A stretch of DNA of 39,111 nt from Alphaproteobacteria bacterium. GTDB lineage: Bacteria; Pseudomonadota; Alphaproteobacteria; ATCC43930; CGMCC-115725. Numbering within the stretch: the first letter of the stretch is position 1; each line of letters opens with the position of its first letter. A model generated the notes under the pieces. That model was not told where the DNA came from and made no database searches. It saw nothing but the letters and a program-made list of their open reading frames with translations. The translations under genes and the position numbers were made by a program. Shown one piece after another: positions 1 to 24,313 of this stretch. Where the stretch lies: the NCBI GenBank assembly GCA_018971215.1, contig JAGXBG010000003.1, positions 1 through 39,111 of the forward strand. Reading direction: 5' to 3'.

Positions 1-2153
1 GCATCGACGACGAAGGCGAAGTCGCGGCTCACCGGCTGGAACGGCGACAGTTTGAGCAACGGCCGCGCCGTGCCTTTGGCGCGCGGCTCCGGCACCGCGT
101 CGAGAAAGACTTCGAAGCCGGCGACCGGACCCTCCACCGCCATCGACCGCAGCACGCCCGGATGGATTTCGCCGAACGTTGCGAGGACCTTGGGCCCCTG
201 GCGCAGCGTGCCGGAGCGGCCGGGGTGATACCAATCCGGCGCCGATGCTTCGAGCTGCATCGCGTCGGATGCCACGCCGGCGGCGGCCAAGGCGACGAGC
301 GCGTCTTCCTTGGCGTCGAACGCGCTTGCAGTACGCGCGGGTTCGTTCCACGCCTTGCGCCGAACGGCGCCGGCACGGATGCCGGCGGCGACCAGGTCCT
401 GGCCGTTTTCGGTGTCGTCGCGATACTGCGGTCCGAGCTCGAACAGCGCGACGTCGGCGAGGCCGCGATCGGCGTTGCGCCGCGCGGCGGCGAGCAGATT
501 GGGCAGGATCGACGGTCGCATCGCGTCGAGATCGGCGCTGATCGGATTGAGCAGCATCAGATTCGCCGCGCCGCCGCCGAACAGCGCGGCATCCTTGAGC
601 GCGAGGAACGAGAAGCTCGCCGCTTCGACCAGGCCATGCGCCGCCAGCGTGCGCCGGACCATGCCGGCGCGGCGTTGCGCCGGGTTCAGCGCCGGCGGCG
701 GCACGGCGCCGTCGCGCGGCAACGACACCGCTGGAATCGCGTCGTAGCCATGGATGCGCAGTACCTCTTCGACCAGGCAGGCCTCGCCTTCGATGTCGGC
801 GCGCCACGATGGCGGCTCGACGTCGAAATGATCGCCGCTTTCGCGCACGGCGCAACCGAGCGCCTGCAGGATGCGGCGCTGTTCGCCGGCGGCGACTTCG
901 ACGCCGCCAAGGCTGCGCACGCGATCGGGCCGGAAACGGATGGTGCGCCGCCAGGACGGCACCGCCCCAGCGACGCCGACCTCCGAGACCGCGCCGCCGC
1001 ACAGTTCGAGGATAAGGCGCGTCGCGATTTCGAGACCCGGCCGGACGAATTCGGGATCGAGCCCACGCTCGAAGCGATAGCGCGCATCGCTTTGCAGGTT
1101 GAGTTTGCGACCCGTTGCTGCGGTTCGTACAGGGTCAAACAACGCCGCTTCGATGAAGACATTCGTCGTGGTCGCGGTACAACCGGACGATTCGCCGCCG
1201 ATGACGCCGCCGAGGCTGAGCACGCCGCTGGCGTCGGCGATCACCGTCATGTCGGGTTCGAGCGCGTAGCTCTTGCCGTTGAGCGCCGCCAGGGTTTCGC
1301 CCGCGCGGGCGCCGCGCACCGCGAGATCGCCCTTGAGTTTATCGGCATCGAAAACATGCAGCGGCCGGCCGAGATCGAAGGTCAGCAAATTGGTGATGTC
1401 GACCAGGGCCGAAATCGGCCGCAAGCCGATCGACGTCAGCCGCTCTTGCAGCCACGCCGGGCTCGGCCCGTTCTTGAGACCGCGCACCACGCGGCCGAGG
1501 AACAGCGGACATGCCTTGTCGTCCGGACCGGCGAGATGAACGGCAATCGGGCACGGGAAGGTGCCGGCGACCGGCGCCGTATCGAGCGGCGCGAGCTTGC
1601 CAACGCCGGCGGCGGCCAAGTCGCGGGCGAGGCCGCGCACGCTCAGGCAATCGGCGCGATTAGGCGTCACCTTGACGTCGAGCACCGGATCGCCGAGACC
1701 CGCCGCCTTGACGAAGCTGTCGCCGGGACGCGGGCCGTCGGCTAACTCAATGATGCCCGTGTGATCTTCCGACAGCATGAGCTCGTAGCCCGAGCACAGC
1801 ATGCCGTTCGACACCACGCCGCGGATCTTGCTTGCCTTGAGCGCCTGACCGGAGCGCGGAATCACCGCGCCCGGCGGCGCGAACACGCCGAGCAGGCCAG
1901 CGCGCGCGTTGGGCGCGCCGCACACCACCTCGACCTTGGCTTTGCCGGTGTCGACCAGGCAGAGCTTCAACTTGTCGGCATCGGGATGCGGCTTCGCCTC
2001 GAGCACGCGCGCGACGACGAACGGCGCGAGCGGCTTGCTGCGGTCGACAACGCTTTCGACCTCGAGACCGAGCATAACCAGCTTGGCGACGATCGCGTCG
2101 AGCGCGGCGTCGGTTTCGAGATGCGCCTTGAGCCAAGCGAGCGTCGTCTTCAT
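1..2153 (-). CDS. pheT: Phenylalanyl-tRNA synthetase beta subunit, C-terminus truncated by window start
   Basis: Reverse translation from ATG at 2153: [86 protein letters not shown]..., with PheT tRNA-binding and B5-type regions. Open to the left edge, so missing from the ORF track. ATGA overlap with pheS. Confidence 0.95.
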
Positions 2154-11345: not shown

Positions 11346-14300
11346 CGTTGCCGGAGACCTGCATACGTCGTCCGGTGATGACGACGTTGCTGATGATGGC
11401 CTTCGTGATCTTCGGCTTGTTCGGCTACCGGCTGCTGCCGGTGGCGGCGATTCCACAGGTCGATTTTCCCACCATCGTGGTTGCGGCGCAGCTGCCGGGC
11501 GCCTCGCCTGAGACCATGGCGTCGTCGGTGGCGACGCCGCTCGAACGCCAATTCTCCACCATCGCCGGCCTCGATTCGATGGTGTCGACCTCGGGCCAAG
11601 GCGTCACCAGCATCACGATGCAGTTCGATCTCGGCCGCAATATCGATGGCGCGGCGCTCGACGTGCAGGCGGCGATGACCACCGCCGCCAAGAAACTGCC
11701 GGTCGAGATGACGACGCCGCCGAGCTTCCAGAAGGTCAACCCGGCCGATCTGTCCGTCATCCTGCTGGCCCTGCATTCGGACACGTTGCCGCTGTCGATG
11801 CTCGACGAATATGCCGAGACGATGATGGCCGAGCGCATCTCGACCTTGCCCGGCGTCGCGCTGGTCAACGTTTTCGGCGCCGCGAAATACGCGCTCCGCG
11901 TCCAGGCCAATCCCGAGGCGCTGGCCGCCAAGGGCCTGACGTTGCAGGACGTTCAGAACGCCGTCGCCGCGGCCAATTCCAACACGCCGGTCGGCACGCT
12001 CATGGGGACCGACCAGAGCTTCACGCTGCAGATGAAGCAGCATCACCGTGCGGCCGACTTCAAGCCGATCATCATCGCCTATCGTGACGGTGCGCCGGTG
12101 CGGCTTGAGGATGTCGCCACGGTCGCCGATAGCGTCGAAAACGACCAGGTCGCCGCTTGGTACAATGGTCAGCGTTCGATCATCCTCGGCATCCAGAAAC
12201 AGCCCAACGCCAACACCATCGAGGTTGTGGATTCGATCAAGCGGCTGCTGCCCGTGTTCGAGGCGCAGCTGCCGGCGGACGCCAAGCTCAACGTGATGGC
12301 CGACCGCTCGGTGTCGATCCGCAATTCGGTCGACGACGTCCAGTTCACGCTGATGCTGACGGCGTTTCTGGTCGTGCTGGTGATCTATCTGTTCCTGCGC
12401 AACGCAACCGCGACAATCATTCCGGCGCTCGCGTTACCGGTGTCGATCGTCGGCACCTTCGCCGGCATGTACGTCATGGGATACAGCATCGACAATTTGT
12501 CGCTGCTGGCGCTGACGCTATCCGTCGGCTTCGTCGTCGACGACGCCATCGTCATGCTCGAGAACATCGTGCGCCATATCGAACGCGGCGAGCGCGTGAT
12601 GGACGCCGCCTTTCGCGGCGCGCGCGAGATCGGATTCACCATCATATCGATCACCTTCTCGCTGGTGGCGGTGTTCATTCCCGTGCTGTTCATGGGCGGC
12701 GTGGTCGGCCGCGTCTTCCGCGAATTCGCCGTCACTATCAGCATGACCATCCTGATCTCGGGCCTCGTGTCGCTGACGCTGACGCCGATGCTGTGCTCGC
12801 GGCTGCTGAAGCCGCATCGCGAGGACGAGAAGCAATTCATCGTGCTGCGCTGGTCCGAGGCGGGGTTCGAAAAACTGCGCGCCGGCTACGAATGGGCGCT
12901 GACGCGGGTGATGCGGCGGCGGCGCGCCGTGCTGGGCATCACCATCCTGTCGATCGTCCTGAGCGCCGTGCTGTTCACGGTCGTGCCCAAGGGGTTCTTC
13001 CCCAACGTCGACACCGGCTATCTGTTTGCCTTCACCGAAGGACCGCAGGACGCGTCGTTCCAGTCGATGGTCGATCATCAGCAGCAGGTGGCGAAGATCA
13101 TCCACGACGACCCCAACGTTTCCGACGTCAGCTCGATCATCGGCGCGACGAATTTCAGTCCGGCGCTTAACAACGGCCGTCTGTTCATCCAATTGAAACC
13201 GCGCAACGAGCGCAGCCTGACGGCCGACGAGGTCATCCAGGAGTTGCGGCCCAAGCTCGCGACGGTGCCCGGCATGCGGACGTTCCTGCAAAGCCTGCAA
13301 GACATCCGGCTCGGCGGACGTCTGTCCAAGAGCACCTATCAATACACGTTGCAGGACGCCGATACCGACGAACTCTACCGCTACGCCACCGAAATGGAAG
13401 GCCGGATCACGCACCTGTCGGGCTTCCAGGACGTCAATTCGGATCTCGAACTGCGCAATCGCCAGGCGATCGTCCACGTCGACACCGACAAGGCCGCGTC
13501 ACTCGGCATCACCATCGACCAGATCCGCAATACGTTTTACAGCGCCTTCGGCGCGCGGCAGATCTCGACCATCTACGAGCCGTCGGACGATTACGAAGTC
13601 ATCCTCGAGCTCGACAAGCGCTTCCAGCAGTCGCCGTCGGACCTGTCCAAGATCTACCTGAAGAGCGCCAACGGCCAGGCGGTGCCGCTCGGCGCGGTCG
13701 CCACGATCGCGTCCGGCGTCGGTCCGGTGACGGTCAACCATCAGGGCCAGCTGCCGTCGGTCACCATTTCGTTCAACCTCGCGCCGGGCGTGTCGCTCGG
13801 CACCGCGGTCAACGCGATCAGCCGGCTCGAACGGCAGGTCAACCTACCGGTCACCGTCAACACCGGCTTCCAGGGCAACGCCCAGGTCTTCCAGGCCGCG
13901 CTCAAGGGCCAGGGTCTACTGCTGATGGCAGCGATCCTGGTGATCTACATCGTGCTTGGCATCCTGTACGAGAGCTACATCCACCCGATCACGATCCTGT
14001 CCGGCCTGCCGGCGGCGGGGCTCGGCGCGCTCGGCACGTTGATCGTGTTCCATGAGGACCTCAGCATCATCGCCATCATCGGCATCGTCATGCTGATCGG
14101 CATCGTCAAGAAGAACGCGATCATGATGATCGACTTCGCGCTCGAACGGCAGCGCGCTGGCGATGTCACCGCCGACCAGGCGATGTTCGAGGCCTGCCTG
14201 CTCCGCTTCCGCCCGATCATGATGACCACCATGGCCGCGATCATGGGCGGCTTGCCGATCGCCATCGGCGTCGGCGCTGGTTCCGAGTTGCGCCGGCCGC

Positions 14301-21419: not shown

Positions 21420-22925
21420 ATGGCTCTTACGCCACGACTGGATCTGCGCCAAGGCCAGGCGCTCGTCATGACGCCGCAACTGCAGCAGGCGATCAAGCTG
21501 CTGCAGATGTCGAGCATTGAGCTCACGGCCTATGTCGAGAGCGAGCTCGAGCAGAATCCGCTGCTGGAGCACGATGAGACGTCCGATGAGAGCGGTGGCG
21601 CGGACGGCTCCACAACCGATGGCGCGACGACCGAGGCGCCGGCCGAAGGCGAAACGCCGCCGGACGAGCGCCGCGACGCCGTGGCCGGCGCCGACACCGC
21701 GGACGCCGCCGAAACCTGGCACGAGGAAGCCGGCCGCGAAGGCGAGGGCAATCTCGACTACGCCGGCGATCCGGAAGCCTGGAAAACTCGCAGCAGCGCC
21801 GCGCCGGCCGACGGTCTGCCCGGGCTCGATCAGACGCTGACGCGGCCGATCAGCCTGCGTGAGCATCTGCTCGAGCAGCTGGCGGTTGAGATCCACGATC
21901 CCGCCGACCGCGTCATCGGCAGCCATCTCATCGACATGGTGGACGACGCCGGCTACATCACCGGTGACTTCATCGTCATCGCCGAACTGCTGTCGTGCGA
22001 CGTGGCGCGCATCGAAAAAACGCTGACGCTGCTGCAACGGTTCGATCCGGCCGGCGTTTTTGCGCGCAACCTCGCCGAATGCCTGGCGTTGCAGCTCAAG
22101 GAGCGCGACCGGTTCGATCCGGCGATGCAGACGCTGGTCGAAAACCTGCCGTTGCTCGCCAACCGCGACGCGCAACAGCTGATGCGCGTCTGCCGCGTCG
22201 ATGCCGGCGACCTCACGCAGATGGTCGCCGAGATCAAGGCGCTCAATCCGAAGCCTGGCCTCGCCTTCGACAAGGCGGCGCCGGAAATCGTCGTGCCCGA
22301 CGTGCTGCTGCGCGCGCTGCCGGACAGCAGCTGGGCGGTGGAGCTCAACAGCGAGAGCCTGCCGCGCGTCCTGGTCAACAATCGCTATTACGCCGAAGTC
22401 AGCGGCGCAACCAAGAACAAGAACGAGAAGGAATATCTCTCCGAGCGCTACCAGTCGGCCAATTGGCTGGTCAAGGCGCTGCACCAGCGGGCGACCACGA
22501 TCCTGAAAGTGTCGCGCGAGATCGTCCGCCAACAGGACGGCTTCCTGCGCCACGGCGTGCAGCATTTGAAGCCGTTGGTCCTGCGCGACATTGCCTCGGC
22601 CATCGAGATGCACGAAAGCACCGTCAGCCGCGTCACGACCAACAAATACATCATGACGCCGCGCGGGATTTACGAGCTCAAGTACTTCTTCACTTCGGCC
22701 ATCGCGGCGGCTTCAGGCGAGGCACATTCGGCCGAAGCCGTGCGCTTCCGCATCCGCACGCTGATCGAGGCGGAATCGGGCGAAATTTTGTCCGACGATC
22801 GGATCGTGGAAATTTTGCTGAAAGAAGGTATAGACATCGCCCGCCGGACGGTCGCCAAATACCGCGAGGCGATGAACATCCCCTCGTCGGTCCGGCGCCG
22901 CCGCGAGAGGACCCTGCAATTGTGA
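21420..22925 (+). CDS. rpoN: RNA polymerase sigma-54 factor
   Basis: LRQGQALVMTPQLQQAIKLLQMSSIELTAYVESELEQNPLLE region I, acidic region II, HESTVSRVTTNKYIMTPRGIYELKYFF, RpoN box ARRTVAKYREAM. Confidence 0.97.
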   Translation: MALTPRLDLRQGQALVMTPQLQQAIKLLQMSSIELTAYVESELEQNPLLEHDETSDESGGADGSTTDGATTEAPAEGETPPDERRDAVAGADTADAAETWHEEAGREGEGNLDYAGDPEAWKTRSSAAPADGLPGLDQTLTRPISLREHLLEQLAVEIHDPADRVIGSHLIDMVDDAGYITGDFIVIAELLSCDVARIEKTLTLLQRFDPAGVFARNLAECLALQLKERDRFDPAMQTLVENLPLLANRDAQQLMRVCRVDAGDLTQMVAEIKALNPKPGLAFDKAAPEIVVPDVLLRALPDSSWAVELNSESLPRVLVNNRYYAEVSGATKNKNEKEYLSERYQSANWLVKALHQRATTILKVSREIVRQQDGFLRHGVQHLKPLVLRDIASAIEMHESTVSRVTTNKYIMTPRGIYELKYFFTSAIAAASGEAHSAEAVRFRIRTLIEAESGEILSDDRIVEILLKEGIDIARRTVAKYREAMNIPSSVRRRRERTLQL

Positions 22926-23416
22926 CCGGGCAACGAGCAAGCAAACCAGCAATGCGGATTTCGGACCTGCTGACGCAGACATCGGTGACGACCCGTCTCA
23001 AGGCGGCCAACAAGAAGCAAGCCTTGCAGGACTTGGCCAAGCGCGCGGCGTCCGTGATCGGCGTCGGCGAGCGCGTCCTGTTCGAGACCCTGATGGAGCG
23101 TGAACGCCTGGGCTCGACCGGGATCGGCAACGGCGTGGCGGTGCCGCACGGCCGACTGCCCGGCCTGTCGGCGCCGCGCGGCTTCTTCGCCCGGCTTGAA
23201 AAGGCGGTCGATTTCGAGGCGGTCGACAACCGCCCCGTCGACCTGATTTTCCTGCTGGTCACGCCGGAAGGCGCCAGCGGCGATCATCTGAAGGCGCTGG
23301 CGCTAGTTTCGCGCCTGCTGCGCGACCGCAAGATCTGCGAAAAGCTGCGCGGCACCGACCGCGCCGACGCGCTTTACGCGCTGCTCGTCGACCACGCCGC
23401 GAGCGACGCCGCCTGA
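22922..23416 (+). CDS. ptsN: PTS IIA-like nitrogen regulatory protein PtsN
   Basis: MRISDLLTQTSVTTRLKAANKKQALQDLAKRAASVIGVGERVLFETLMERERLGSTGIGNGVAVPHGRLPG. GTG at 22922 overlaps the rpoN stop (GTGA); alternative ATG at 22952. Confidence 0.93.
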   Translation: MTGQRASKPAMRISDLLTQTSVTTRLKAANKKQALQDLAKRAASVIGVGERVLFETLMERERLGSTGIGNGVAVPHGRLPGLSAPRGFFARLEKAVDFEAVDNRPVDLIFLLVTPEGASGDHLKALALVSRLLRDRKICEKLRGTDRADALYALLVDHAASDAA

Positions 23417-23455: not shown

Positions 23456-23677
23456 TCAGTGAACGCTGAGCGGTTCCAGGTCGTTCTGGCGGACGGCCGC
23501 GGCGGCAACTTCCGGCGTATTCATCACCGCAACCTGGGTGCCGTCGGCGGCGTGGACCGCATAGGCCTTTTGGCCCTCGATCGTCACGGGACGAATGTAG
23601 GCGATGTCCTGGATGCCCCACAGCGCGAATTCCTTCGCCGAGATGTTCTTCAGCCGTACAAGTTCGGGGTTATTCAT
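23456..23677 (-). CDS. DUF1150 family small protein
   Basis: MNNPELVRLKNISAKEFALWGIQDIAYIRPVTIEGQKAYAVHAADGTQVAVMNTPEVAAAAVRQNDLEPLSVH, resembling DUF1150 proteins adjacent to hsp20; overlaps hsp20 by 8 nt. Confidence 0.82.
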   Translation of the reverse strand: MNNPELVRLKNISAKEFALWGIQDIAYIRPVTIEGQKAYAVHAADGTQVAVMNTPEVAAAAVRQNDLEPLSVH

Positions 23678-24116
23678 GGTCGCCTGCCTTTCCGTTGATC
23701 GGACTACCCGAGCCGCGGATTTCGACGCGCTTCACCCGTTGCTCCGCCGCGCGACGCGCGAGATCGACGTGGAGGAGGCCATTTTCGAGCCAGGCGCCGG
23801 CGACTTCGATGCCGTCGGCGAGGACGAACGAACGCTGAAACTGACGCGCAGCGATGCCGCGGTGGAGATAGATCCGGTCCTTGTCGTCGCTCTGCTTGCC
23901 GCGGATGATCAGCTGGTTGTCTTCGATCTGGACCGCCAGGTCGTCCATGGTAAAGCCGGCGACGGCGAGTGTGATGCGCAGGGCGTTGTCGCCGCGCTGT
24001 TCGACATTGTAGGGGGGGTAGCCGTCTGCGGTTGCCTTGGTCACGCGGTCGAGCGCACGCTCGAACTGGTCGAATCCCAGCAACAACGGCGAATTGAAGA
24101 CCGACAAACGTGCCAT
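23670..24116 (-). CDS. Small heat shock protein, Hsp20/alpha-crystallin family
   Basis: MARLSVFNSPLLLGFDQFERALDRVTKATADGYPPYNVEQRGDNALRITLAVAGFTMDDLAVQIEDNQLIIRGKQ...RIYLHRGIAARQFQRSFVLADGIEVAGAWLENGLLHVDL; SD AGGAGG 5 nt upstream of ATG. Confidence 0.95.
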   Translation of the reverse strand: MARLSVFNSPLLLGFDQFERALDRVTKATADGYPPYNVEQRGDNALRITLAVAGFTMDDLAVQIEDNQLIIRGKQSDDKDRIYLHRGIAARQFQRSFVLADGIEVAGAWLENGLLHVDLARRAAEQRVKRVEIRGSGSPINGKAGDHE

Positions 24117-24118
24117 CT

Positions 24119-24206
24119 GGACCTCCTCGAGCGAGCTAAGTCCCCTGTCCGAGACCCCGTTCCGGGCGCCTCTTGCAACCATCGGACGCGCCAATCGGCC
24201 GCGTCC
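24119..24206 (-). promoter_or_regulatory. Candidate RNA thermometer (ROSE-like three-hairpin 5' UTR of hsp20)
   Basis: Minus strand: hairpin I GGACGCG/CGCGTCC (24206-24184); hairpin II GAGGC(g)CCCG-GAA-CGGGGTCTC (24172-24151); hairpin III GGACTT...AGGTCC enclosing CTC-GCTC-GAG (24143-24119), which contains the SD GAGGAGG. Confidence 0.55.
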
Positions 24207-24216
24207 CACGAGCGAC

Positions 24217-24245
24217 ATATGGGTCGACGCGCCGGTCTTATCAAG
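24217..24245 (-). promoter_or_regulatory. Candidate sigma32 (RpoH) promoter of hsp20
   Basis: Minus strand CTTGATA (24245-24239), 15 nt, CCCATAT (24223-24217); resembles CTTGAAA-N13-15-CCCCATNT. Confidence 0.6.
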
Positions 24246-24274: not shown

Positions 24275-24313
24275 AAAAGACGAAGGCCCGGCGCGGACGG
24301 CGCCAGGCCTTCG
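24275..24313 (-). terminator. Intrinsic terminator downstream of tRNA-Ala
   Basis: Minus strand CGAAGGCC-T-GGCGC-CGTCC-GCGCC-G-GGCCTTCG followed by TCTTTT: 13 bp stem with one mismatch, 5 nt loop, U-rich tail. Confidence 0.85.

Follow-up and report, generated by a model that had tools for sequence, protein, structure and literature searches.

We propose that the small heat shock gene hsp20 and the larA gene behind it form a heat-controlled operon, which most probably combines an RpoH-type promoter with a leader resembling the ROSE RNA thermometers. Both genes lie in a 39,111 nt stretch of DNA (hereafter the window), which forms contig 8 in an alphaproteobacterial assembly of 2.5 Mb. The ROSE-like thermometer in the window leader is very probably functional. 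A preliminary description of this DNA had postulated two layers of heat control of hsp20, a promoter and hairpins masking the Shine-Dalgarno (SD) sequence, and both layers stand as predictions.

In the proposed mechanism the RpoH-type promoter would start a transcript near 24210, with a 94 nt leader predicted to fold into two stable GC-rich hairpins with a bulged G each, and then a weaker, imperfect hairpin over the SD. At growth temperature hairpin III would exclude ribosomes; heat would open it and permit translation of hsp20, with translation of larA possibly coupled through the overlap with the end of hsp20. The chaperone is very probably made only when the cell is hot, and perhaps the same applies to an activator of the Lon protease. 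Two-layer control of small heat shock proteins (sHsps) by RpoH and ROSE elements is already known, for instance for Pseudomonas ibpA (PMC3669281).

As a more tentative suggestion, somewhat short of an even bet, a single thermometer with a core intermediate between ROSE and ROSE-G (AG facing G) may govern both the holdase and LarA via the overlapping genes, so that chaperoning and proteolysis are jointly released by heat, and a leader family unlisted in Rfam may run through much of the Alphaproteobacteria. The hsp20 thermometer as such would widen the reach of ROSE-type control to an sHsp leader that is widely conserved in the Alphaproteobacteria and that current Rfam models miss. It would also imply that a sensor core can drift while the hairpin over the SD stays, and would connect an RNA thermometer, in a form that can be tested, to the activation of the Lon protease by heat via LarA. 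The features concerned, all on the minus strand, are as follows.

24239..24245, minus strand: -35 element CTTGATA of the predicted RpoH-type promoter, from the sequence, conserved in orthologs
24217..24223, minus strand: -10 element CCCATAT, 15 nt after the -35 element, from the sequence, conserved in orthologs
24117..24210, minus strand: predicted 94 nt 5' leader, start site placed from the -10 element
24184..24206, minus strand: hairpin I, 7 bp, bulged G24199 and CC/GG, tetraloop GAUU, from the minimum-energy fold
24151..24172, minus strand: hairpin II, 5 bp, bulged G24167 and 4 bp, loop GAA, from the minimum-energy fold and covariation
24119..24143, minus strand: hairpin III, predicted to mask the SD, GGACUU/AGGUCC and CUC/GAG around an AG-by-G internal loop, loop GCUC, from the fold and family covariation
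24134..24139, minus strand: UUAGCU, anti-SD strand replacing U(U/C)GCU in the genus of the window, from the structure-guided alignment A6, invariant in L002, L004, L005 and L006
24122..24128, minus strand: Shine-Dalgarno sequence GAGGAGG, 5 nt before ATG 24116, mean unpaired probability 0.19
23670..24116, minus strand: hsp20, IbpA-type small heat shock protein of 148 aa (PF00011)
23456..23677, minus strand: larA, DUF1150 protein of 73 aa ending in SVH (PF06620), 8 nt overlap with hsp20

The operon and its promoter

Read along the minus strand, the order is a tRNA-Ala gene that has its own terminator, hsp20 (PF00011) and then the DUF1150 gene (PF06620). The terminator-like element, a strong 14-bp hairpin with a T-run at 24281-24313 (minus strand), lies 3' of the tRNA-Ala(GGC) gene and stands between this gene and the hsp20 promoter. 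Weak Rfam matches to FsrA, BTH_s1 and P17 upstream were rejected, as they correspond to this hairpin behind the tRNA gene.

DUF1150 proteins are known as LarA, an allosteric Lon activator encoded in a sigma32-controlled operon with shsp2 in Caulobacter, the only organism in which Lon activation by LarA has been shown (PMC10665427). The window gene has the DUF1150 domain, a C-terminal His and a position behind an sHsp gene. In 98 of the 104 orthologous loci larA is found behind hsp20, its protein usually ending in His, and the 8 nt overlap of the two genes is present in all four congeners. Since the larA start lies within the 3' end of hsp20, the two genes may be translationally coupled, and through such coupling LarA would come under control of the thermometer.

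The RpoH-like sequence CTTGATA-N15-CCCATAT, pointed out in the preliminary description, is indeed located on the minus strand upstream of hsp20 and is conserved in the orthologous leaders. There it recurs as CTTGAT-N15/16-CCCAWAT, at a varying distance of about 57 to 146 nt from the start codon. A promoter score of at least 11 of 13 was reached by 58% of the 104 orthologous leaders versus 0.3% of shuffles. RpoH itself is encoded in the same genome (L144, 817-1713; TIGR02392, 364 bits against a cut-off of 323), and direct sigma32 regulation of the shsp2-larA operon is established in Caulobacter (PMC10665427). With CTTGAW and CCCAWAT-like elements at fixed spacing and conserved at orthologs, the predicted hsp20 promoter qualifies as an RpoH (sigma32) promoter by its sequence. 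We infer from this that hsp20 would depend on RpoH in the organism of the window, with transcription starting near 24210.

Further along, the interval 22925-22960 (plus strand) between rpoN (21420-22925) and a ptsN-like frame ending at 23416 is without a hibernation-promoting factor gene. Neither the genome of the window, searched as a whole, nor the sister genome G002 yielded a Ribosomal_S30AE (PF02482) protein. Such a protein is present in 19 of 21 genomes searched, often near the orthologous hsp20, and in the sister genomes G001 and G003 it is located elsewhere.

The leader fold and its conservation

The minimum-energy fold of the leader contains exactly three stems. Stem I pairs GGACGCG (24206-24200) with CGCGTCC (24190-24184); these 7 bp had been recognised before, but the stem is longer than then described, with CC/GG and a GATT loop beyond the bulged G24199. 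Stem II, with its single bulged G, and stem III, tying up the SD GAGGAGG 5 nt before the ATG, were found in the fold just where they had been proposed. In stem II, GAGGC (24172-24168), the bulged G24167 and CCCG (24166-24163) are followed by the GAA loop and CGGG+GTCTC (24159-24151). The arms of stem III are GGACTT (24143-24138) and AGGTCC (24124-24119), with CTC (24135-24133) and GAG (24128-24126) inside. The predicted fold also agrees with the SD masking expected at low temperature, the SD being largely paired in the ensemble (mean unpaired probability 0.19).

Taken alone, the window leader has a folding z of -1.72, and 12 of 200 shuffles fold as well as it does; likewise, SD masking of the same degree is seen in 10-17% of shuffled leaders. 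Single-sequence folding is thus only weakly and non-significantly above chance, and the case for the leader structure is a comparative one. Stem III has a formation probability of at least 0.95 in the window leader, whatever length of coding sequence is included. In three congeners stem III meets competition from alternative pairings in silico once 15-30 nt of coding sequence are added, and this modelled competition counts against the thermometer reading.

For the comparison we collected 104 distinct orthologous hsp20 leaders. U(U/C)GCU, or UUAGCU as in the genus of the window, occurs 15-40 nt before the start in 99 of them versus 6.4% in shuffles, and the bulged-G hairpin module (a bulged G before CC...GG) in 83 of them versus about 4% of shuffles. 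Owing to the varying lengths of loops and spacers, no useful consensus emerged from 36 leaders treated with MAFFT and RNAalifold, and a covariance model was required in which the pairs were set by hand. This model, R1, describes hairpins II and III and was built from 10 seeds; it retrieved orthologous leaders, that of the window among them. In the derived alignment of 41 leaders, which was fitted to the structure and thus leans towards it, 91.7% of the cells pair versus 49-57% with slid partners, and two-sided pair changes were counted in 56 cells versus 20.1 +/- 3.4 in shuffles.

Swapping the 3' arms between genomes, a test independent of alignment columns, showed that the leaders' own hairpins are the more stable, with z -4.5 for III and -6.4 for II. 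Swapping just the outer flank duplex had a weak effect (overall z -2.3, within-family z -0.6). SD accessibility was 0.18 with own leaders versus 0.40 with shuffled leaders. Pair changes and arm swaps together indicate that stems II and III covary across the orthologous leaders, which is the covariation looked for since the structure was first described. Among the congeners, stems I and II show paired changes and stem III is invariant; the covariation of stem III consequently stems from other genera, and it is across genera that the SD-masking hairpin shows compensatory change.

A rebuilt covariance model, R2, was trained on the orthologous hsp20 leaders. It gave one strong match per genome in 37 of 61 genomes, including that of the window (match on the leader at 24117-24174), and by coordinates the strong matches sit directly upstream of the orthologous hsp20; elsewhere in the 61 genomes the best E was 0.0026. 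It should be noted that, as R2 was trained on the same leaders, its specificity is informative and its recovery is not. At the Parvibaculum-type loci (L119, L123, L124, L125, L128 and L130) an alternative masking stem, AAAGUCGCU...GGGACUUU, is seen in the last 50 nt before the start, and the masked site appears to be GGGA instead of GGAG.

In the majority of orthologs the partner of GAGGA is UCGCUC or UUGCUC, with the G left unpaired. The preliminary description had read the UCGCU beside the SD as the ROSE signature strand in the window as well, but this assignment could not be maintained, as UCGCU falls in the loop and is absent from the congeners L005 (UCGAG) and L006 (UCGAU). Moreover UCGCUC directly abuts GAGGAG in the window with zero bases between, making pairing in the usual register impossible. 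No U(U/C)GCU pairing strand is found in the window leader itself; UUAGCU pairs instead. The covariance-model alignment places UUAGCU against UC-GCU with the A as an insertion, and with this strand paired the inserted A results in the AG-by-G internal loop of stem III. The four congeners have GGACUUAGCUC in common with loops GCUC, GCUC, GAGC and GAUC, and the hairpin energy is -9.1 kcal/mol in all four. Judged by its sequence, the predicted sensor core of the window leader is genus-specific.

Temperature response and alternative explanations

ViennaRNA does not predict opening of the window leader up to 60 C. The loci above the Rfam ROSE cut-off largely show the same lack of opening in silico, and folding energies do not predict opening of E. 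coli ibpA by heat either, hence these energies cannot decide the question. They would fit hairpins that merely stabilise the mRNA and lower translation constitutively, with heat control purely transcriptional via RpoH, and the strong conservation of the RpoH-type promoter points the same way. We consider this explanation unlikely, as the anti-SD core has been conserved in its imperfect state instead of being perfected, the layout matches that of an E. coli thermometer shown to act in translation (PMC3669281), and known ROSE elements likewise do not melt in silico. A further possibility is that Hsp20, bound to its own structured leader, keeps translation repressed until it is drawn off by aggregates, with or instead of thermosensing. 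E. coli IbpA represses via its 5' UTR and needs Arg93 and Tyr34 to do so (PMC10474464); since the window Hsp20 retains both (in AARQF and YPPYN, respectively), such feedback is a live complementary reading. Nevertheless we rate it as improbable: E. coli K98 is Ser in the window Hsp20, self-repression by IbpA has been tested only in gamma-proteobacteria, and feedback alone would leave the conserved SD masking by an imperfect helix unexplained.

The other two explanations concern the nature of the leader itself. The hsp20 frame is open from ATG 24218 in the window, a start that a longest-ORF rule would call and that would yield a protein of 182 aa. This ATG lies inside the -10 element, however, and the last 90 nt are open in 42 of the 104 orthologs, the same as in shuffles (0.42). 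An in-frame start at the position of 24218 is also absent from the congeners L004-L006. On frame openness in the orthologs and the unshared start we rejected a coding origin of the leader, which seems extremely improbable. Several strong stems in a leader could also suggest a transcription attenuator, but a terminator-like stem with a U-run was not found in the leader, the sole one being that at 24313-24281, upstream behind the tRNA gene; the attenuator was rejected on this ground, and we see hardly any chance of it. As for the thermometer that we favour, thermosensing by the window leader is suggested by its likeness to tested ROSE elements.

Relation to ROSE and other known thermometers

ROSE-like elements are defined as leaders of sHsp genes, about 60 to over 100 nt long, with two to four stem-loops (PMC10474464, PMC4166951). 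The window has a predicted leader of 94 nt with three stems before hsp20, and the SD is imperfectly paired in the 3'-proximal hairpin, around the AG-by-G internal loop of stem III. The architecture of serial hairpins with the last one occluding the SD, which had led to the ROSE proposal, is borne out as conserved, covarying and SD-masking, with a layout as in E. coli ibpA.

The Rfam comparison put forward along with that proposal left the window leader unmatched: it lies below the reporting level of RF00435 and below the thresholds of RF01832 and RF02523. Throughout scans of the window and 20 related loci, ROSE was never above threshold at the orthologous hsp20 leader; in four relatives a sub-threshold ROSE_3 puts this leader first. 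The sole RF00435 match in the genome of the window is at a second hsp20 on contig 105 (E 0.004; 32.9 bits, under the curated threshold of 45). This second hsp20 (11926-12433, plus strand; L001/L047) has the promoter elements CTTGAC/CCCATCT in its leader. RF00435 matched at E<=1 in 41 of the 61 genomes, by coordinates mostly at the second-hsp20 paralogue. R2 matches 6 of the 12 loci fetched for RF00435 matches, at the ROSE position and strand. At the locus L140 (G031 contig 746) R2 matches both 313-370 (minus strand) and 511-546 (plus strand), about 140 bases apart, and one of the two coincides with an RF00435 match; the arrangement looks like a pair of divergent genes, each preceded by a ROSE-like leader. 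Leaders of sHsp genes from other Alphaproteobacteria may be listed in the ROSE survey by Waldminghaus et al. (2005).

At the level of the operon a close parallel is shsp2-larA of Caulobacter, with the same gene order, a DUF1150 protein ending in His and sigma32 control as predicted for the window; the main text of PMC10665427 makes no mention of a thermometer, and the likeness is one of genes and regulation. For the leader it is E. coli ibpA (RF01832, ROSE_2), also an sHsp leader in which the last hairpin covers the SD. Its hairpins 1 and 2 share their predicted dot-brackets and their order with stems I and II, have a bulged G each, and end 63 and 33 nt ahead of the start codon, compared with 67 and 34 nt in the window. 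Among 2000 shuffled window leaders the hairpin-I shape appeared in 2, the hairpin-II shape in 3 and both in 0; the window structure was already known when the two leaders were compared, but a single chosen reference was used. In contrast to E. coli ibpA, the GC-rich window leader is unmatched by the RF01832 model, its anti-SD strand is UUAGCU instead of UCGCU, and stem III has the AG-by-G internal loop where E. coli has a lone unpaired G. Searching the E. coli ibpA leader with R2 gave no match.

A fourU thermometer is not indicated, as just two U stand opposite the SD in stem III. ROSE-G (PMC12857270) shares with the window a G of the anti-SD strand opposite an unpaired SD G. However, ROSE-G has CUGCU with one G on each side and was described for ABC transporter genes, whereas the window has UUAGCU with AG facing G before hsp20; the extra A and a U-G pair set its core apart and the leader outside ROSE-G. 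Rhizobial ROSE (RF00435) has in common with the window both the bulged-G 5' hairpin (GYGCC...GGG) and the anti-SD hairpin. The ROSE-like elements of Pseudomonas ibpA likewise couple sigma32 with translational control of an sHsp, and have a GC-rich stable first hairpin and a sensor as the second (PMC3669281), akin to the window; they differ in having two hairpins within 61-62 nt, against three in about 94 nt, and the canonical U(U/C)GCU. As the window leader lacks the signature in its usual geometry and stays below the Rfam thresholds, we file it as a variant that would work in the manner of ROSE and not as a strict member, its tie to ROSE lying more in layout and core motif than in sequence.
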